Source of the DNA: a virus
Virus record (IMG/VR): IMGVR_UViG_3300048010_000106
Location: 1 to 35,757 of that record
Reading direction: 5' to 3' (one strand)
Length of the DNA: 35,757 nt
The notes under the pieces are model-generated. The model did not search any database and was not told the origin of the DNA. It saw only the letters and a program-made list of their open reading frames with translations. Made by a program: the position numbers and the translations under genes. This document shows, piece after piece, positions 11,895 through 31,350 of this stretch (its first letter is position 1; each line of letters opens with the position of its first letter).

Positions 11895-12067
11895 TAGCTA
11901 TACGGACCTTTAATTACTTTAGGATTAGTAGTTTTACGAGTACCACCTTTAGCCATGCCGCCACCAGCCATTTTAATTGGCTTTTTGACCGCGCCGCCTT
12001 TAGCCATTTTCATTTTTTTAACCATGCCGCCTTTAGCGTACATTTTTTTATTCATTTTCTTTGCCAT
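11894..12067 (-). CDS. Short, very basic protein with MAKGG-type repeats
   Basis: I start this at the ATG at 12067 (57 residues), which overlaps the upstream gene by 20 bases. Upstream in-frame starts (ATG at 12076, TTG at 12100) are possible but extend further into the neighbour. The protein is almost entirely Lys, Met, Gly and Ala. Units such as YAKGGMVKK, MAKGGAVKK, MAGGGMAKGG recur, and there is almost no acidic residue. Its stop overlaps the start of the adaptor gene (TAATG). Small basic Gly/Lys repeat proteins are common beside head genes in marine phages, but their function is unknown. Nucleic-acid binding or a virion-internal role is a guess from charge alone. Confidence 0.65.
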   Translation of the reverse strand: MAKKMNKKMYAKGGMVKKMKMAKGGAVKKPIKMAGGGMAKGGTRKTTNPKVIKGPYS

Positions 12068-12749
12068 GCTCTTCATCCTCTTCTGCATAAAGATTATCAA
12101 AGATCCGATTTACATCCATTGTATAGTCTAAATCAGATTTTGAATAGTGAATGTGTTGTGACGGTTTAAACTTGGGAGCACCCTCGCCTGTAACATACCA
12201 AGCTGGATGTGTTACCCTCACACGATTGTTTGGCAAAGCCACTATATTACCTGTCCATTTACCAGCATCGAGTAACTCTAACACATGGCTTTGTTTATGT
12301 TGAGCTGGGTCATCTGCTACCTCACTATCTGTATAGTCAACAGTGAAAAAATATTTTGCGGGGTAAAACTCCCCTTCTATTTTGGCAAGCCAAGGACACG
12401 GCTGTGCTCTATTTAAGCTATACACAGAGTGTGTGTGAGACATACAGTCCCAAGGCTGTGCTTGGTATACATCCATTGGCTCAGGCCAACCTTCAAATGC
12501 TGTATCACCTACTAAAGCGGTTATTGGCATCCTTGCCCACATAGCGCCCCCATGAATATTTTCCTCACCTGTTATATCGCTTTCGCAACCTGTAAACAAA
12601 ACTTGGAAACTTAAACATCTATTTGGCATAGTCGTTACGGCTATTACCATTGCATGAAGGAACTCTCCATGGAAGTCTTCGTGGTTGCAAGTATACTCCC
12701 TCCTTACCCAACATTTAAAGTAAGGGACGTTACTTGTTAAAAAACTCAT
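12048..12749 (-). CDS. Highly conserved phage protein of unknown function
   Basis: The 233-residue product starts SFLTSNVPYFKCWVRREYT and contains NHEDFHGEFLHAMVIAVTT, HGGAMWARMPITALVGDT, HKQSHVLELLDAGKWTGNIV and ALPNNRVRVTHPAWYVTGE. I recognise this as a protein found, with very little change, in many uncultured marine phages, where it lies between head and connector genes. It is rich in His, Trp, Cys and Met. No known enzymatic or membrane motif is obvious. The start overlaps the upstream stop (ATGA). The position suggests a virion-morphogenesis role. The unusual conservation suggests tight structural constraint, but this cannot be measured from one sequence. Confidence 0.75.
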   Translation of the reverse strand: MSFLTSNVPYFKCWVRREYTCNHEDFHGEFLHAMVIAVTTMPNRCLSFQVLFTGCESDITGEENIHGGAMWARMPITALVGDTAFEGWPEPMDVYQAQPWDCMSHTHSVYSLNRAQPCPWLAKIEGEFYPAKYFFTVDYTDSEVADDPAQHKQSHVLELLDAGKWTGNIVALPNNRVRVTHPAWYVTGEGAPKFKPSQHIHYSKSDLDYTMDVNRIFDNLYAEEDEEHGKENE

Positions 12750-14153: not shown

Positions 14154-14636
14154 TTAGGCTGTTGGTGAGTCGGATGAAATACCGAAAAACTTCAGTGATA
14201 GCTGACCGCCAGCACCGGCTGTTCCAGAAATAACAACCTCTACCTCATCCGCAGTCTCGGTTGCAGCAGTAGTTGTTCCACCAGACATGCCCAAAACACC
14301 GTTACAAGGGAAAAAGCCCTTAAAACCAGCAGCGTTAATAGCTAGAGAAACACCGTCTACGAAACCGTCTGTGTCAGCATCTGTACCAATATCCACAAGG
14401 TTAACGGCGTTTGCTGCCGCAGTAACCACAGTGATAGCTACGCCCATAGGAATAAAGTTAGATGGAATTCCAATAGCCGCTTCTTTATGCGAAGTGCCTG
14501 TGGCAGCAATATCAATGGTGGCGTTGTATGTAGAAAGAACCATCTCATTAGTAAGTGCGCCAGTTGTCGCATTCTTGATGATGGATTTAAAACCGTTTTC
14601 TGAACGGACGGGACCGTTAAAAGTTGTGTTCGCCAT
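14154..14636 (-). CDS. Putative head-associated structural protein
   Basis: The 160-residue product begins ANTTFNGPVRSENGFKSIIK, a characteristic start for a family of phage structural proteins. It has a good AGGAG six bases before the ATG. The rest is Ala/Thr-rich beta sequence (AIGIPSNFIPMGVAITVVTA, NLVDIGTDADTDGFVDGV). It is the first gene after the terminator that follows the major capsid gene. Its leader contains a stem-loop whose 3' arm reaches the Shine-Dalgarno sequence (see 14643-14676). Likely a decoration or vertex protein, by position only. Confidence 0.7.
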   Translation of the reverse strand: MANTTFNGPVRSENGFKSIIKNATTGALTNEMVLSTYNATIDIAATGTSHKEAAIGIPSNFIPMGVAITVVTAAANAVNLVDIGTDADTDGFVDGVSLAINAAGFKGFFPCNGVLGMSGGTTTAATETADEVEVVISGTAGAGGQLSLKFFGISSDSPTA

Positions 14637-14642
14637 TTCAAA

Positions 14643-14676
14643 CTCCTGTCGTGGCTAGTGTCAGCCACAGGATGCG
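14643..14676 (-). promoter_or_regulatory. Leader stem-loop upstream of the 160-aa structural gene
   Basis: In the minus-strand RNA, TGTGGCT and AGCCACGA form a six-base stem (GTGGCT/AGCCAC at 14651-14668 on the plus strand), flanked by CCTG and CAGG. The CAGG end touches the AGGAG ribosome site, so folding could affect translation. No ligand-binding fold is recognised. Confidence is low. Confidence 0.35.
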
Positions 14677-14701
14677 GCTGTCAGGGATAAAAATATAATA
14701 C

Positions 14702-14754: not shown

Positions 14755-15663
14755 TTAAGCTCCAGGAGAACCAAACACACAGCGTGGGTCAGAAACACCG
14801 AAGCTGTAACGCTCACGAGCTTTGTACCGCACGTTACCTGTATCAAAATCGCCTTCCATAGCAGTTTGCATCGGTGTACGAACAAAATGCTTGAAGCCGT
14901 TTGGTGCATCCGTTTTAATAAAGAATGCGTCTGTATCGGTTAGGAAGTGATTAACTACATAACCTTCAGGCAACATACCCATATTACGGATTGCATTGAC
15001 ATCATTATCTGCTGTACCAACGCGCAGATTAGAGGCCATCAACCGCTCTGCCACAAACTGCAATGCTGGTGGAATAATCATTTTCATACCACGAAGCGCA
15101 ATTTTCAAACCACGCTCGTCAATGAAAGCTGAAATATCAATCAACGATTGCTCAAGTGACGTTTCATTCAAATCAGCCGCAGTTGTCAACTCATTACGGA
15201 AGTTGCCACCAGCAGTAGTTGGATGATCGGTTGCACACAATTCTTTACCATCGCCAAGCGTAAAGCTGCTGTCAAAAGCATTATTCAGCGTAGCTGCTGC
15301 TTTGACCTGCTTTGTATTAGCCATGGAACGAGCCAATGCACGAGTGTAACGAGAGCTGAGCTTGTCGTAGAGGTTATCCTCAACGGCTTCTTCAGTAATC
15401 GAAAACGCGAGTGCGATTGTTTCATGTGTGTAACGAGCAGTAAATGCCTCATTAGCCAAATCAAATGATACCGCAGCACCTTCTTGTTTAGTTGGTGCGG
15501 CACCAAAGCCAGCGAGCATTACCTCTTCTTCGAACGCACGATCTGAATTTTCTGATTCATAAATCTCAGCATGTTCATTTTCGTAACGGTCGTACTCCAT
15601 ACCGAACAGGGCGTTTAGTCCCGGCTCTAGTTCTTTAAGGAGTTGGGATCTTGCAATAGCCAT
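14755..15663 (-). CDS. Major capsid protein (Mu gpT-like prohead subunit)
   Basis: The 302-residue product has AGGAG upstream of the ATG. Its second half carries sequence patterns I recognise from the coat proteins of marine podoviruses: ETSLEQSLIDISAFIDERG, GLKIALRGMKMIIPPALQF, VAERLMASNLRVGTADNDVN, and near the end GDFDTGNVRYKARERYSFGV followed by SDPRCVFGS. The N-terminal third is charged and helical (SQLLKELEPGLNALFGMEYD). Size and arrangement fit a HK97-type coat of the Mu-like prohead group. Scaffold, capsid-associated protein, coat and a strong terminator follow in order, the usual layout of a capsid operon. No protease gene was seen in the window. Confidence 0.88.
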   Translation of the reverse strand: MAIARSQLLKELEPGLNALFGMEYDRYENEHAEIYESENSDRAFEEEVMLAGFGAAPTKQEGAAVSFDLANEAFTARYTHETIALAFSITEEAVEDNLYDKLSSRYTRALARSMANTKQVKAAATLNNAFDSSFTLGDGKELCATDHPTTAGGNFRNELTTAADLNETSLEQSLIDISAFIDERGLKIALRGMKMIIPPALQFVAERLMASNLRVGTADNDVNAIRNMGMLPEGYVVNHFLTDTDAFFIKTDAPNGFKHFVRTPMQTAMEGDFDTGNVRYKARERYSFGVSDPRCVFGSPGA

Positions 15664-16781: not shown

Positions 16782-17675
16782 TCACGATTGTAAGCGAGCT
16801 AGTTGCTTCGCGTATTGTTCATAAGATACACCTAATTTATCTGCGATTGCAACCTGAGAAGGTGATAATTTGATTTTTTTGTTGGGAGCTTTACCCGATG
16901 ACCTTGTAGCACCAGCTACTGGAGCACGAGCACTTGATCTTGTTCCCTGTTGAAATTTATGAGGAAATTCATCACGCATACGTTTATCTAGCTCATCATA
17001 ATACTCATCAGAGGATGGGTTAAAATATTCTTCCTCTATAAGTTTTTTATGTATACTAAATGCTGTGAGCGTCATAGGCTCATCTTGCCCAAACCAAGTA
17101 TTCCGCTCTGCCCAAGATCTAGCTTTTGGGTCTGGTTGGTTATTCTGTTGTTGCTGCGGAGCTGCTTGTGGCTGCTGTTGTGGAGCTGCTTTACGTTGCT
17201 CTAATTGTTGTTTTGCCACATTAAGACGCTCACTTTCAATAGCTAATTTAGCTACCGCTTTTTGAGCTTCTATCTGAGCATCAACATCACCAATATTGAT
17301 AGCATCACTTAATTGTTTTTTCAGTACATCTTCTTGTGATGTTACCCTTTGATCATACTCACTTATGTACGATTCATCAATTTGAGAACTACGTTTTTGA
17401 AGCTCTTCATTTTGAGCTTGAACAGATCTAGCATATTCAGTAGCTGCTTTTTCACGTCGCTCAGCCTCACGCATTTTGTAGGTGAGCTTTTCGATACGCT
17501 TTTGGACTTTGTCGCTATAGCCTTCGAGGTCTTCGTCTGAGGTTTCTTGGACTGTACCTTCTGCGCTTTCTTCACTGACGGCTTCTTGATTTTCTTCACC
17601 GTCTTTTTGCTCTTCTGTGTCATTTTCCAATTCCACTTCTACAACATCATCTTCTAATTGTTTAGCTTCGGGCAT
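16782..17675 (-). CDS. Scaffolding protein
   Basis: I start at the ATG at 17675, with AGGAG eight bases upstream; a GTG nine bases earlier would lengthen it by three residues. The 297-residue protein has an acidic N-terminal 55 residues (Glu/Asp-rich), a long coiled-coil region (about 55-165, KRIEKLTYKMREAERREKAA), a Gln-rich linker (about 165-185), and a basic C-terminal end (KAPNKKIKLSPSQVAIADKL) followed by a short helix. This layout is the classic scaffold: elongated and coiled-coil, with a positively charged C-terminal coat-binding segment. It lies just upstream of the coat operon genes and just downstream of the GroES-type gene. Function is by architecture, without a sequence search. 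Confidence 0.85.
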   Translation of the reverse strand: MPEAKQLEDDVVEVELENDTEEQKDGEENQEAVSEESAEGTVQETSDEDLEGYSDKVQKRIEKLTYKMREAERREKAATEYARSVQAQNEELQKRSSQIDESYISEYDQRVTSQEDVLKKQLSDAINIGDVDAQIEAQKAVAKLAIESERLNVAKQQLEQRKAAPQQQPQAAPQQQQNNQPDPKARSWAERNTWFGQDEPMTLTAFSIHKKLIEEEYFNPSSDEYYDELDKRMRDEFPHKFQQGTRSSARAPVAGATRSSGKAPNKKIKLSPSQVAIADKLGVSYEQYAKQLARLQS

Positions 17676-17686
17676 AAGAATCACTC

Positions 17687-18112
17687 CTATGTGTGGATTA
17701 TATCTTCAGGATTACTAATAGTAGCTAATATTTCATCATCATTCAATAAACGAACTTCGCCACCATCTATTTTAAAACGGCTACCAGCATATCGGCCAAA
17801 AATGACCCAATCACCTTCCTTACACCAAGGTTTGCTATCGCCAAATTTTTCTTTATCTTGATACGCTAATGGACCAACTTTGACCACATAACCACAAACA
17901 GTAGCTAATGCCTCACGATCAACTGTGGAATCAGGTATATAAATACCTCCTGAAGTTTTACCTTTACCTCGGTAAGGAAGAATAAGAATACGCCAACCAG
18001 AAGGCTCAGGAAGTTTTTCTTTTGAGGTGATATTATCGGGGGAGGTTTCTTTTTTAGCAGAATGTTCCGCAGCTTTTGCATACCGCTCTGGAACAAATAG
18101 AGTTTTACTCAT
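17687..18112 (-). CDS. groES: GroES-type co-chaperonin (Cpn10) homologue
   Basis: The 141-residue protein has a Cpn10 domain at about 33-133: PSGWRILILPYRGK, a mobile loop GKGKTSGGIYIPDST in which IYI replaces the GroES hydrophobic tripeptide, then GYVVKVGPLAY, CKEGDWVIFGRYAGSRFKID and LLNDDEILATI. It is longer than bacterial GroES (97 aa) because of a 32-residue polar N-terminal extension. Co-chaperonins cap GroEL so that a substrate folds inside. Phage T4 gp31 replaces host GroES for coat folding, so a similar role is plausible here. The gene lies directly before scaffold and coat genes, and its start overlaps the preceding gene by eight bases. Activity is not shown. Confidence 0.85.
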   Translation of the reverse strand: MSKTLFVPERYAKAAEHSAKKETSPDNITSKEKLPEPSGWRILILPYRGKGKTSGGIYIPDSTVDREALATVCGYVVKVGPLAYQDKEKFGDSKPWCKEGDWVIFGRYAGSRFKIDGGEVRLLNDDEILATISNPEDIIHT

Positions 18113-18296: not shown

Positions 18297-18440
18297 TTAT
18301 GTTTTTATAACTTTCTTACGTTTTTTAGCAGTTTTAGCAGCATTTTTAAAATCTGAGGCTGATGGTGCGCCTTTTTGTCCAACCTTACGCATTGGTTTAC
18401 CACTAGCTCTTCGTTTTGCAATGTTCCTATATAAACTCAT
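18297..18440 (-). CDS. Small basic phage protein (47 aa)
   Basis: The start is the ATG at 18440 with AAGGA upstream; it overlaps the holin-like gene stop (ATGA). The 47-residue product is strongly positively charged: SLYRNIAKRRASGKPMRKVG, then QKGAPSASDFKNAAKTAKKR. The segment MRK.G.KGAPSA.DFK.AAKTA is a signature I recall from small proteins of marine phages. There is no acidic surface to balance it, so nucleic-acid or membrane-phosphate binding is possible but speculative. Confidence 0.65.
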   Translation of the reverse strand: MSLYRNIAKRRASGKPMRKVGQKGAPSASDFKNAAKTAKKRKKVIKT

Positions 18441-18814
18441 TTTCGTATTCCTTTTATACCGCGTATACCGAAACTTGCTCCAATAGAAGCATACATAGCC
18501 CACTGAAACCAATCAGGGGTTCTAGACAATGCCGCAAAACCATCTTCAACATATGGTTGAGTAAATGGGATAAAACACATAGCTATGATCACAATAAATA
18601 AAATTGTCCATGCTTCATCCTTCCAGCTATTATCGCTGGATTGTGCCATTATTTTTTCCCACCCTGCTTCATGGGTGGCAGCTACTTTCATAACTTCAGC
18701 TTCTGCTTCCGCTTTAGCTTGAGCAACTCTACCTTTAGCTTTAGTTTGCTCTATTTTGGATTCCATAAATGAGCCAGCTAAATTAGCTATTGGACCAATC
18801 AATGCTTGTATCAT
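18437..18814 (-). CDS. Putative holin (three-segment / GTA-type holin-like)
   Basis: The ATG at 18814 overlaps the stop of the upstream small exported gene (ATGA) and has AGGAG ten bases before it; an upstream in-frame start is possible. The 125-residue product has a short hydrophobic N-terminal helix (MIQALIGPIANLAGSF), an Ala/Lys/Glu helical stalk (about 18-60), and two membrane segments (about 68-86, WTILFIVIIAMCFIPF, and about 102-118, WFQWAMYASIGASFGI). The WKDE...P...FAAL...PDW.QW pattern fits the holin_3TM group found in phages and gene transfer agents. Such holins open the inner membrane for lysis. No endolysin is visible nearby. Confidence 0.7.
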   Translation of the reverse strand: MIQALIGPIANLAGSFMESKIEQTKAKGRVAQAKAEAEAEVMKVAATHEAGWEKIMAQSSDNSWKDEAWTILFIVIIAMCFIPFTQPYVEDGFAALSRTPDWFQWAMYASIGASFGIRGIKGIRK

Positions 18815-19026
18815 CTTGATAAAACTCCTTTGGGCAACGGCTTGCAACTCCAGCCAACAGGCTTATATCCTCGCATATGGATATGGACACGTTCTGCTAA
18901 AACTAATGCATGAGCTTGACAAGCACGTTCGGTATCCTGCCATTTTTGCGCTTCTAAAAAAGTACATTGATCACGTTGCACCGCGCTTGTTCCTATAAGA
19001 CAGGCTATAACTACAGCTTGATACAT
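18811..19026 (-). CDS. Small exported Cys-containing protein
   Basis: I start at the ATG at 19026, the A of which overlaps the upstream TGA (TGATG). The 71-residue product opens MYQAVVIACLIGTSAV, a short hydrophobic signal-like or anchor segment, followed by a soluble part with four or more Cys residues: C21, C36, C61 and one in the leader. The rest reads TFLEAQKWQDTERACQAHAL, then VLAERVHIHMRGYKPVGWSC. It lies between an EF-hand membrane protein and a holin-like protein, so a periplasmic accessory to lysis (an Rz1- or lysis-regulator-like role) is possible. The sequence alone does not prove this. Confidence 0.65.
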   Translation of the reverse strand: MYQAVVIACLIGTSAVQRDQCTFLEAQKWQDTERACQAHALVLAERVHIHMRGYKPVGWSCKPLPKGVLSR

Positions 19027-25363: not shown

Positions 25364-25432
25364 CTAAAAGCACATTAATACAAAAATAATTGCAATAACC
25401 CCAATTACCGCCATTAGCATTTGTGCCGCCAT
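25364..25432 (-). CDS. Tiny hydrophobic ORF (16-22 aa), possible
   Basis: A frame of 22 codons starts at ATG 25432, or 16 codons from the ATG at 25414 that overlaps the stop of the upstream membrane protein (TAATG). Residues include AVIGVIAIIFVLMCF, one membrane-spanning stretch. TAATG coupling favours translation from 25414. Too short for any family call. Listed because the same pattern recurs in other gaps of this window. Confidence 0.3.
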   Translation of the reverse strand: MAAQMLMAVIGVIAIIFVLMCF

Positions 25433-25602
25433 GCGCTGGCATAACCAAAACCAGCAATTACGAAACCCATTAACCCCATAAATATATTGACCCAATGGTG
25501 GTCAAAAATAGGTGGCAATACAAATGCACCCGTCGCGGCAAACATTAGGGTGACGCCAGCCACCATATTAAAGGTACAGAAAAACATATATAACCAGCTC
25601 AT
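25414..25602 (-). CDS. Small two-segment membrane protein
   Basis: The 62-residue product has a strong AAAGGAG six bases before its ATG. It contains two hydrophobic segments, about 3-30 (LYMFFCTFNMVAGVTLMF...) and 36-56 (HWVNIFMGLMGFVIAGFGYA), and ends WRHKC. A short loop with PPIFDHH separates them. It lies in the accessory insert between the terminase genes, next to an unknown Ala-rich protein. No family is recognised. A membrane role, for example changing host surface or superinfection, is possible for such morons but not shown. Confidence 0.65.
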   Translation of the reverse strand: MSWLYMFFCTFNMVAGVTLMFAATGAFVLPPIFDHHWVNIFMGLMGFVIAGFGYASAWRHKC

Positions 25603-27683: not shown

Positions 27684-27743
27684 TTACAGAAGTTGAATTA
27701 GCACAGCGATGATTACTGGCATTGTATCCCAGATTAAATCCAT
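27684..27743 (-). CDS. Tiny hydrophobic ORF (19 aa), possible
   Basis: An ATG two bases after the TAG stop of the gene at 27746 opens 19 codons ending at 27684. DLIWDTMPVIIAVLIQLL is a single hydrophobic stretch. GGTGG lies close upstream, and coupling to the preceding stop would allow reinitiation. It could be a chance frame, but it fits the pattern of other tiny hydrophobic ORFs in the early region. Confidence 0.35.
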   Translation of the reverse strand: MDLIWDTMPVIIAVLIQLL

Positions 27744-27745
27744 AT

Positions 27746-28150
27746 CTACCACCAACAGTGATACACGACTTGTGTACCTTCTGCCATTGCTAGCCGAGCG
27801 GCTGTTACAAACTGATGGTCATATTCCATATTTTCATTTACCACTTCCTCTTGGAATTGGTGACCATAGAAAAAACCACCTTCACTAATATTTTCGGCGT
27901 ACCCTGTGAGCACAGCTTTTTCAAGCTGGTCAATATCAGCTTCGGTAAGTACCATATCATTACAATTAAGCTCAACGGCTGGTCTACCAGTTTTTTCAAA
28001 CCATAATTGCTCCATTAAATCTTGGAGCCGACTGTGTTTGCGCCAGTAGAATTCTTGGTCGGCCGTTTTTACAGTATACTCTTTACCAGTATCTGTATCG
28101 GTGCGTTTTTCGGTTTTAACGCCAATCATACCGTATTGATCTAATCCCAT
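27746..28150 (-). CDS. Conserved phage protein (MGLDQY...FYWRKH family)
   Basis: The 134-residue product has an unusually strong AGGAGG before its ATG. It opens GLDQYGMIGVKTEKRTD and has a conserved TADQEFYWRKHSRLQDLMEQ. The middle reads NCNDMVLTEADIDQLEKAV and the end GGFFYGHQFQEEVV...GTQVVYHCWW. I recognise this as a recurrent phage protein, with GLD.Y, YWRK and FFFG/FFYG motifs, found in cyanophages and other marine phages. Its biochemical function is unknown. High predicted translation and an early location suggest host takeover or metabolism, but this is only inference. Confidence 0.75.
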   Translation of the reverse strand: MGLDQYGMIGVKTEKRTDTDTGKEYTVKTADQEFYWRKHSRLQDLMEQLWFEKTGRPAVELNCNDMVLTEADIDQLEKAVLTGYAENISEGGFFYGHQFQEEVVNENMEYDHQFVTAARLAMAEGTQVVYHCWW

Positions 28151-28159
28151 TGTAACCTC

Positions 28160-28423
28160 CTATATATCCATATTTTTATGGGATGGTAATGTTGAGGAAT
28201 ACATACTATCAGCACGAAGCACTAATGCTTCCTCACAAATAGGGCATGGTGTTTTATCCATATCGCTATATGCCCGAGCATAATTATTGCCGAGCATTGG
28301 CATACCGCAAAGAGTGCCATGCTCACCCGGAACACTGAAGTGCTGTTGGCCGAGTTTTTTAGTCCACTCATGCAAGCCAAGGTCATTGGCAACTTTAGAA
28401 ATATAATTAATAACTTCAGTCAT
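28160..28423 (-). CDS. Small putative zinc-binding protein
   Basis: The 87-residue product has a strong AGGAGG before the ATG. A His/Cys motif can be read: His35-x3-Cys39 (EHGTLCG) and Cys60-x2-Cys63 (TPCPICEEA), so a zinc site of the HCCC type is likely. The segment GTLCGMPMLGNNYARAYSDM is a pattern I recall in other phages and bacteria. It lies directly downstream of a candidate promoter (28464-28507) and 9 bases upstream of the gene at 27746, with which it is probably cotranscribed. Function is unknown; a small metal-binding regulator or DNA-binding protein is possible. Confidence 0.7.
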   Translation of the reverse strand: MTEVINYISKVANDLGLHEWTKKLGQQHFSVPGEHGTLCGMPMLGNNYARAYSDMDKTPCPICEEALVLRADSMYSSTLPSHKNMDI

Positions 28424-28444
28424 TGAAACCTCCTGTTAAGATCC

Positions 28445-28460
28445 GTAAGCAACTGCCTAC
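28445..28460 (-). promoter_or_regulatory. 5' hairpin after promoter element copy 1
   Basis: In minus RNA, GTAGGCA and TGCTTAC form seven pairs, one of them G-U, directly behind the TATATA of the element at 28464. The equivalent position of copy 2 carries GTAGCCA/TGGCTAC. The short loop means the inner pair may open. Confidence 0.4.
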
Positions 28461-28463
28461 CCC

Positions 28464-28507
28464 TATATAATAAGGTGTGATGCCACATGAAGTAGTATTA
28501 AATACTC
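28464..28507 (-). promoter_or_regulatory. Repeated promoter-like element, copy 1
   Basis: Minus-strand GAGTATT and ACCTTATTATATA blocks occur 25 bases apart, as in copy 2 at 28628, with equal length (44 bases). The TATTATATA is a plausible -10 region about 40 bases before the ATG of the zinc-binding gene. No standard -35 is seen. GAGTATT in this copy is also one arm of an inverted repeat (AGTATT / AATACT) with outer arms CACATG / CATGTG. Confidence 0.55.
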
Positions 28508-28522
28508 CATGTGACTATTTTG

Positions 28523-28585
28523 TTATTCAAGTACCCATACAACAATGAGCAGCATTATCACACCTAAAATGGAAAAGAGTATCAA
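28523..28585 (-). CDS. Tiny hydrophobic protein (20 aa) with strong ribosome site
   Basis: A TTG at 28585 opens 20 codons, preceded by AAAGGAGGT at ideal spacing (GGAGG, six bases, TTG). ILFSILGVIMLLIVVWVL forms a single membrane helix with one acidic end. A candidate promoter (28628-28671), a 5' hairpin (28607-28624), and an upstream terminator (28681-28707) define it as its own transcription unit. A second promoter-like element follows before the next gene. TTG starts are less common, and a frame this short can arise by chance. Still, the ribosome site and flanking signals argue it is real. Function unknown; small phage membrane peptides can act on host membrane processes. Confidence 0.55.
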   Translation of the reverse strand: MILFSILGVIMLLIVVWVLE

Positions 28586-28606
28586 TTTGTACCTCCTTTG
28601 AATGAT

Positions 28607-28624
28607 GTAGCCACCATTGGCTAC
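28607..28624 (-). promoter_or_regulatory. 5' hairpin after promoter element copy 2
   Basis: Perfect seven-base arms GTAGCCA and TGGCTAC with a four-base loop follow the TATATA of element copy 2. It sits about 15 bases before the GGAGG of the 20-aa ORF, so it would form near the 5' end of that transcript and might stabilise it. Confidence 0.5.
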
Positions 28625-28627
28625 CAT

Positions 28628-28671
28628 TATATAATAAGGTATGAGAGCCATAGAGGTTGGTCATAATACTC
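28628..28671 (-). promoter_or_regulatory. Repeated promoter-like element, copy 2
   Basis: Same 44-base frame as copy 1: GAGTATT at the upstream end and ACCTTATTATATA at the downstream end. It lies 43 bases before the TTG of the 20-aa ORF and just after a strong terminator, which is where an isolated promoter is expected. Confidence 0.55.
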
Positions 28672-28680
28672 ATCGCGAAT

Positions 28681-28707
28681 AAAAAGACGGCCACCGAAGT
28701 GACCGCC
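28681..28707 (-). terminator. Rho-independent terminator with UUCG tetraloop
   Basis: In minus RNA, GGCGGTCAC and GTGGCCGTC pair (nine pairs, two of them G-U) around TTCG, followed by TTTTTATT. The wobbles would be mismatches on the other strand, so it fits minus-strand transcription. It lies downstream of the gene that stops at 28734 and ends the preceding transcription unit. Confidence 0.8.
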
Positions 28708-29989: not shown

Positions 29990-30064
29990 TTATAGTTTAA
30001 TAATAAAGTGCGACCCTATGATTACAATAATAAAAGTATCTAAATAATCGTTTAGGTGTTCCAC
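29990..30064 (-). CDS. Tiny hydrophobic protein (24 aa) with strong ribosome site
   Basis: A GTG at 30064 opens 24 codons, preceded by TGGAGG seven bases upstream. EHLNDYLDTFIIVIIGSHFI then IKL gives a polar acidic start and a hydrophobic second half, a possible membrane helix. The start codon lies inside an eight-base inverted repeat (CCACGGAT further upstream in the RNA), so folding could regulate it. The nearest downstream gene begins 27 bases after its stop. It may be chance, but the ribosome site is good. Confidence 0.5.
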   Translation of the reverse strand: MEHLNDYLDTFIIVIIGSHFIIKL

Positions 30065-31023: not shown

Positions 31024-31350
31024 TTAAGTATTTACAACCTCATGTGCAAGCCGTAATTTATCACGCCGATAAATATTATAAATAAACTGTCGGCTCACAC
31101 CATAATCATTTGCAATACTCTGATATGTCTCACCAGCATCACGTCTATTGCGAATATCAATGCGACGAGCAGTAATCCAATCGGCATCTTGCCTCGTATG
31201 TCTAGCATCGGGGATATCTAAATTATATTGCATCTTCCATCGGAGAACGGTCGGTGGTGCAATATCAAAATGATCGCAGAACTCTTTATGGCTACCGACG
31301 GTAGCTGCTACTTCACGCAATGCTTCTATATCAATCGGAGTTTTTGGCAT
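31024..31350 (-). CDS. DNA-binding protein with two HTH motifs
   Basis: I start at the ATG at 31350 (GGAGG six bases upstream); an upstream start would extend into the previous gene. The 108-residue product has two helix-turn-helix-like segments: about 19-40 (GSHKEFCDHFDIAPPTVLRW) and about 72-96 (AGETYQSIANDYGVSRQFIY). The second looks like the DNA-recognition fold in which Y.SIA.DYGVS...IY contacts DNA. It overlaps the gene upstream by 20 bases. A small phage transcription regulator is likely, possibly controlling the operons below. It could instead be a terminase-like or transposase-type HTH protein. Confidence 0.75.
   Translation of the reverse strand: MPKTPIDIEALREVAATVGSHKEFCDHFDIAPPTVLRWKMQYNLDIPDARHTRQDADWITARRIDIRNRRDAGETYQSIANDYGVSRQFIYNIYRRDKLRLAHEVVNT

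Follow-up and report, generated by a model that had tools for sequence, protein, structure and literature searches.

The toxicity of the 19-residue membrane peptide IbsC survives its shortening to 15 residues that include at least 10 hydrophobic ones (PMC8309996), and YohP, a small bacterial membrane protein, is only 27 residues long (PMC7549839, PMC12719787). On the phage side, Gp11 of PhiNM1 is a 53-residue early membrane protein that binds host MurG and DivIC (PMC11237401), and catalogues of phage small proteins have been reviewed (PMC11323111, citing Fremin et al. 2022). Here we describe a 20-codon hydrophobic frame, TMP1, in a window of 35,757 nucleotides of viral DNA (positions 1–35,757 of IMG/VR record IMGVR_UViG_3300048010_000106). 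By sequence comparison, this frame is probably, though by no means certainly, a genuine micro-gene in a podophage of the HTVC023P/HTVC027P type, and it would encode a 20-residue single-span inner-membrane peptide acting as a membrane modulator.

The window groups with HTVC027P/HTVC023P-type podophages and phage DSL-LC04 by its terminase and polymerase (58–63% and 51–57% identity). Deposited phages include no near DNA relatives of the region, and many are present in IMG/VR. When the exact promoter-leader pattern described below was used to look for a host, 0 of 84,980 genomes of bacteria and archaea matched. Elsewhere in the window, an Rfam Mu-gpT-DE RNA element (14634–14686, minus strand; 71 bits) lies directly downstream of the major capsid gene (14755–15663), and the virion gene region includes a minus-strand gene (12048–12749) whose product has no Pfam match and matches PHROG 3704, annotated as ferredoxin (moron, auxiliary metabolic gene and host takeover class).

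Architecture of the TMP1 locus

A sequence-only reading of the region had proposed that a terminator, a promoter-like element, a 5′ hairpin, a ribosome-binding site and a hydrophobic 20-codon ORF starting with TTG follow one another on the minus strand. The UUCG terminator, the hairpin, the AAGGAGG motif and the ORF are all present there, in that order. The intrinsic terminator of the upstream gene (28686–28707; 9-bp stem, UUCG loop, T5, −15.5 kcal/mol, z −4.9), which also precedes the cassette in related loci, is followed by the promoter-like block CATACCTTATTATATA (28628–28643, minus strand). This block is conserved; it has no TTGACA-like −35 box and is not listed on the minus strand by a generic sigma-70 consensus scan, and its promoter activity is putative. 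About 3 nt past the block, the leader folds into the 5′ hairpin GTAGCCAATGGTGGCTAC (28607–28624, minus strand; GTAGCCA/TGGCTAC, 7 bp, −10.5 kcal/mol), whose pairing is intact at all positions in six distinct relatives, with changes only to G-U that give no compensatory proof. The Shine-Dalgarno sequence AAGGAGG (28592–28598, minus strand) then stands 6 nt ahead of the TTG start codon of TMP1 (28523–28585, minus strand; start at 28585, TAA stop at 28523), whose 20 codons specify MILFSILGVIMLLIVVWVLE, a predicted single membrane helix.

Downstream of TMP1, and absent from the features listed by the sequence-only reading, is a 3′ hairpin (28482–28515, minus strand; 13 bp, no U tract, −18.3 kcal/mol, z −6.7) that separates the frame from a second promoter-like block. 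Three of its pairs show two-sided changes among five variants, pairing is 100% as compared with 29–57% when the pattern is slid, and one G-U pairs in the minus-strand RNA only; the hairpin is missing from the contexts of three relatives (L051, L053 and L090). Given these changes and the maintained pairing of the 5′ element, both hairpins most likely function within the RNA, where they would form its ends or protect it, and the 3′ one may be an end-of-transcript or processing element. A 15-codon frame that overlaps the 3′ hairpin and the adjoining promoter block (MEYLILLHVASHLII, 28463–28510) was set aside as probably passive.

The next gene had been predicted to have a promoter-like element of its own, and this is borne out by the block CACACCTTATTATATA (28464–28479, minus strand), which begins a second promoter-hairpin-SD unit and, like the first, has no −35 consensus and was missed by the generic sigma-70 scan. 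Its 5′ hairpin, GTAGGCAGTTGCTTAC (28445–28460, minus strand), is followed by a Shine-Dalgarno sequence and an 87-residue gene (28160–28423, minus strand) that has no family match and is present in 47 related loci. The combination of CACACCTTATTATATA, 3 nt, a GTAG..CTAC hairpin and GGAGG, repeated at 28445–28479 and 28607–28643 on the minus strand, precedes many different genes in relatives.

Related phages have more than 15 distinct units in which promoter block, 5′ hairpin and Shine-Dalgarno sequence recur together, and this repeated position suggests a promoter role for both blocks; the repeat is possibly a phage-group-specific promoter-leader lacking a −35 element. Because of the TATAGGG-like appearance of CACCTTATTATATAGGGG, a T7-type phage promoter was also considered: the RNA polymerase family PF00940 was unmatched in 10 records of up to 69 kb, and control genomes were likewise silent. 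An RNA polymerase has been described as specific to HTVC022P, as opposed to HTVC027P (PMC12753301); together with the unmatched PF00940 in relatives of the window (with its silent control), this fits transcription by the host.

A constant frame behind changing genes

The sequence-only reading had proposed comparing relatives, and this was done by scanning IMG/VR with a pattern taken from the sequence downstream of the stop codon alone. The scan retrieved 22 stretches, 20 of them related and 2 unrelated, and in 20/20 of the related loci a hydrophobic 20-codon frame, with its start and hydrophobicity kept, ends at the selecting flank. Relatives that lack both the downstream flank and the hairpin also keep the frame, as MILLSILGVIGLLVILLILD (L051), MILLGLLGVIFMVIVLLCTDW (L053) and MILFSILGVIGLLIILLILD (L090). 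Small indels occur immediately past the stop codon and in the Shine-Dalgarno spacer, and none fall within the 20-codon forms. This conservation of frame, start and hydrophobicity strongly supports the suggestion that the frame is a small gene whose product is one membrane helix. The acidic end that had been ascribed to the helix is not conserved, since residue 20 of the flank-selected frames varies among E, D, G, S and R. Comparison with Pfam, PDB and INPHARED entries gave no homologs of the peptide, and none was found outside this phage group.

What changes among relatives is the gene in front. The full cassette runs from terminator through promoter block, 5′ hairpin and Shine-Dalgarno sequence to an optional cargo gene and then the tiny ORF, and in most relatives TMP1 forms its final cistron, preceded by any of five different cargo genes, whose stop codon it usually overlaps as ATGA. 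Such overlaps join the frame to cargo A (L002, L009, L051, L063 and L064), to cargo B (L065 and L070), which has only its first residues in common with A, to cargo C (L050, L069 and L074) and to cargo E (L052, L053, L058 and L089); in L083, the frame comes after cargo D, outside these four overlapping kinds. The cargo genes that were tested against PHROG and Pfam gave no match. Cargo-less forms, in which the frame lies directly behind leader and Shine-Dalgarno sequence, are found in the window, in L049/L057 and in L004/L006/L073, and AGGAGG has the same position in all of the cargo-less relatives; L090 carries the frame in another arrangement, with no clear Shine-Dalgarno sequence. The idea that the frame is packaged as its own transcription unit therefore holds for the window and for two further lineages, not for the majority of relatives, and the cargo-less unit is one of several states of the frame.

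The three cargo-less lineages lie in three parts of the tree, each adjoining a cargo-bearing one, which suggests about three losses or gains of cargo around a retained tiny frame; this count is rough, as the tree uses 54 nt and recombination is likely. The clearest comparison is with L066, whose leader side is almost base-for-base equal to that of the window, as are its tiny frame and 3′ side; only the approximately 300 bp of cargo is absent from the window. The start codon is retained at these exchange borders, as is the strong Shine-Dalgarno sequence, and the gene downstream of the TMP1 unit also differs among relatives.

Selection on the peptide was assessed by parsimony on one tree. Among 14 haplotypes, 55 substitutions divide into 19 synonymous and 36 nonsynonymous changes, close to the 17.5/37.5 of random placement, and among 20 haplotypes 73 substitutions divide into 25 and 48 (neutral expectation, 25.5/47.5). 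A simple dN/dS ratio, at 0.8, was uninformative as proof of coding and was replaced by a residue-class simulation; since the counts are neutral, the evidence for coding rests on amino-acid class. In the smaller set, 0 substitutions place a charged residue, N/Q/H, proline or stop in positions 2–19 where 14.6 would be expected (1 in 5000 simulations); in the larger, 0 do so in residues 2–18 against 27.9 (0/4000 simulations). Mean hydrophobicity is less sharp (P = 0.004 for 14 haplotypes and 0.076 for 20), and the minimum GRAVY of the 20 gives P = 0.006. Every one of the 14 haplotypes has a mean GRAVY of at least 2.7 over residues 2–19 and one hydrophobic segment of transmembrane length. Few residues are fixed, but position 5 is S, G or A and position 8 is G in 20/20 haplotypes, a pair that could form a small-xx-small face of the kind used in helix packing. 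As judged from these substitutions, selection is on hydrophobicity, plus the small-x-x-Gly pair. Because hydrophobicity is held while the letters drift and the preceding gene is swapped or lost, what counts for the phage appears to be the peptide itself.

Two readings that deny the peptide a function of its own bear on these data. That the frame is a generic hydrophobic one of recent origin, functionless and kept by linkage to promoters and hairpins, accords with its few fixed residues and with the ease with which membrane-like frames arise from T-rich DNA (PMC10065794); drift over 73 substitutions free of stops and polar residues, indels at both borders and none inside, and a strong Shine-Dalgarno sequence and start kept where cargo is exchanged make this very improbable. 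The frame might instead be a regulatory element, either a leader or attenuator acting on the next gene or a segment for ribosome run-out by which cargo translation is coupled to the 3′ hairpin, consistent with its place after a cargo gene and before a strong hairpin and with synonymous and nonsynonymous changes in neutral proportions. Yet a hairpin, a fresh promoter block, a leader and a Shine-Dalgarno sequence intervene before the next gene, which varies among relatives, and the frame persists where the hairpin is missing and where the cargo is; nor would polar-residue avoidance be expected of a leader, and we regard such a role as unlikely.

Further tiny hydrophobic frames

TMP1 is not the only frame of its kind. 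The 3.0 kb of intercistronic DNA in the window contains 4 frames of 14–26 hydrophobic codons where 0.18 would be expected, a number reached by 0/200 shuffles, and the antisense strand of the same DNA contains 0; relative G001 has 5 between its genes, as compared with 0.47 expected. Together with the conservation of the frame in relatives, this excess upholds the view that the arrangement is unlikely by chance. Tiny frames lying within longer genes (31095–31187, 17168–17224 and 7170 in the window; 1761–1823 in L004) were discarded as overlaps.

The frame nearest to TMP1, TMP2 (MDLIWDTMPVIIAVLIQLL; 27684–27743, minus strand), comes right after the gene at 27746–28150 as the last cistron of the next unit. 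It has an acidic N-terminus and conserved W-D and P residues, and across 12 haplotypes polar residues are avoided in its core (P = 0.02; mean hydrophobicity, P = 0.005). Mirroring TMP1, it stands behind a cargo gene in most loci and directly behind promoter 2, hairpin and Shine-Dalgarno sequence in L050/L061. TMP4 (MEHLNDYLDTFIIVIIGSHFIIKL; 29990–30064, minus strand; 24 codons, GTG start, GGAGG upstream) is conserved in several relatives, and its last codons, FIIKL and the stop, coincide with the promoter-like sequence TTTATTATTAAACTATAA of the next unit. A longer membrane frame, MMDGTLIFLIVCDAVLLIAIGFKVKEALSE, of 30 codons and with an SD-like sequence, is identical in relatives L007 and L008 (5798–5890, plus strand).

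The start of TMP3 (MLMAVIGVIAIIFVLMCF; 25364–25420, minus strand) overlaps the stop of a gene for a 62-residue two-span protein (25414–25602), and the frame sits before the gene upstream of terL. At the same place L002 carries MLLGLFTGLAFIFIIMCF, and more distant phages, found via another gene, have frames of 18–22 residues, such as MWILIFAIILLGFYSLINK, just before the gene that precedes terL. The two-span protein next to TMP3, and the single hydrophobic helix of TMP1 in a phage that appears lytic, would suit a lysis function for TMP1, whether as a holin in miniature, as a pinholin or as an antiholin-like helper. However, a better holin candidate is encoded far off (18437–18847, minus strand; PHROG 3427 holin, 2.9e-4; Pfam GTA_holin_3TM, 24.0 bits, just under the 24.8-bit cut-off), the phage lysozyme (PF00959) of G001 is in another region, and no lysis gene family, endolysin and spanin genes included, was recognised among the neighbours of TMP1. 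These holin-like and lysozyme genes elsewhere make a lysis role less likely; we place its chance low, and TMP1 is probably not a holin. The long relatives lack the endolysin families PF08291 and PF14113, and the likely holin gene lies near one for a GroES-like protein (17687–18112). That neighbouring units end, one after another, in such tiny peptides points to a set of membrane modulators related to each other and less to a single lysis pore.

Possible role and comparison with known systems

For TMP1 as a membrane modulator, the following course can be envisaged. Host RNA polymerase would read the promoter block, the hairpins would protect the short mRNA, and ribosomes would enter at the Shine-Dalgarno sequence where cargo is missing and through stop-start coupling at ATGA where it is present. 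The peptide would then insert as a single helix into the inner membrane and serve as a dose-limited modulator of the infected-cell membrane, with its small-xx-Gly face packing against itself or against a host membrane protein; the likeliest single effect would be a lowered or tuned proton motive force, as produced by IbsC. Most likely, the peptide acts either on the host inner membrane, in the manner of Ibs or YohP, or on a membrane protein, and the data do not choose between an IbsC-like membrane effect and Gp11-like binding of a host target. A more tentative extension, which we hold to be possible but doubtful, is that these phages carry a modular array, every exchangeable cargo gene being trailed by a constant ultra-short membrane peptide. 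Such peptides would constitute a hydrophobicity-selected, sequence-tolerant modulator set that jointly fixes the state of the infected-cell membrane, and the borders of cargo exchange would be fixed at the tiny frames.

Genes of 20 codons are usually taken for noise and skipped by annotation, and drift with hydrophobicity held, combined with cargo swaps, is unusually clear evidence for a real one. The locus also suggests a search rule, namely tiny hydrophobic intergenic frames just before promoter-hairpin-SD units, which occur at about 20 times expectation in this genome, and it would offer a cheap, ordinary system for testing whether a marine phage needs a peptide made up of hardly anything beyond one membrane helix.

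Of the described systems, the Ibs peptides of E. coli (PMC8309996) resemble TMP1 in their length of 19–26 residues, their one hydrophobic helix and their tolerance of altered sequence, provided that the hydrophobic length is preserved; the tolerance documented for IbsC represents the same kind of constraint as the drift of TMP1. This match in length, composition and drift tolerance also raises the question of whether TMP1 is itself an Ibs-like toxin, belonging to a type I toxin-antitoxin pair whose antitoxin is an antisense RNA. Against this, a consensus scan, of a type that can miss promoters, found no plus-strand promoter-like site for such an RNA at 28400–28523, the flanks differ between clades so that no common antisense RNA is conserved, and a cargo-exchanging gene of a lytic-type phage has no obvious need of addiction; we regard a toxin-antitoxin pair as a rather remote prospect. 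Unlike Ibs, TMP1 belongs to a phage cassette that lies between the genes for replication and those for packaging. No antisense RNA was found for it, and the two share no sequence match.

As a putative membrane modulator, TMP1 is comparable to YohP in being a predicted inner-membrane single-span peptide that has no catalytic domain, but YohP is the product of a host stress gene rather than of a phage gene and does not match it in sequence. With Gp11 of PhiNM1 it has in common that it is a predicted phage-encoded small membrane protein, although Gp11, which has 53 residues and two predicted helices, comes from a different phage and host and likewise has no sequence match. In general kind, TMP1 is akin to the unannotated very short phage genes of the small-protein catalogues reviewed in PMC11323111; it is distinguished by being one family traced through cargo exchange, in a genome that carries four tiny frames.
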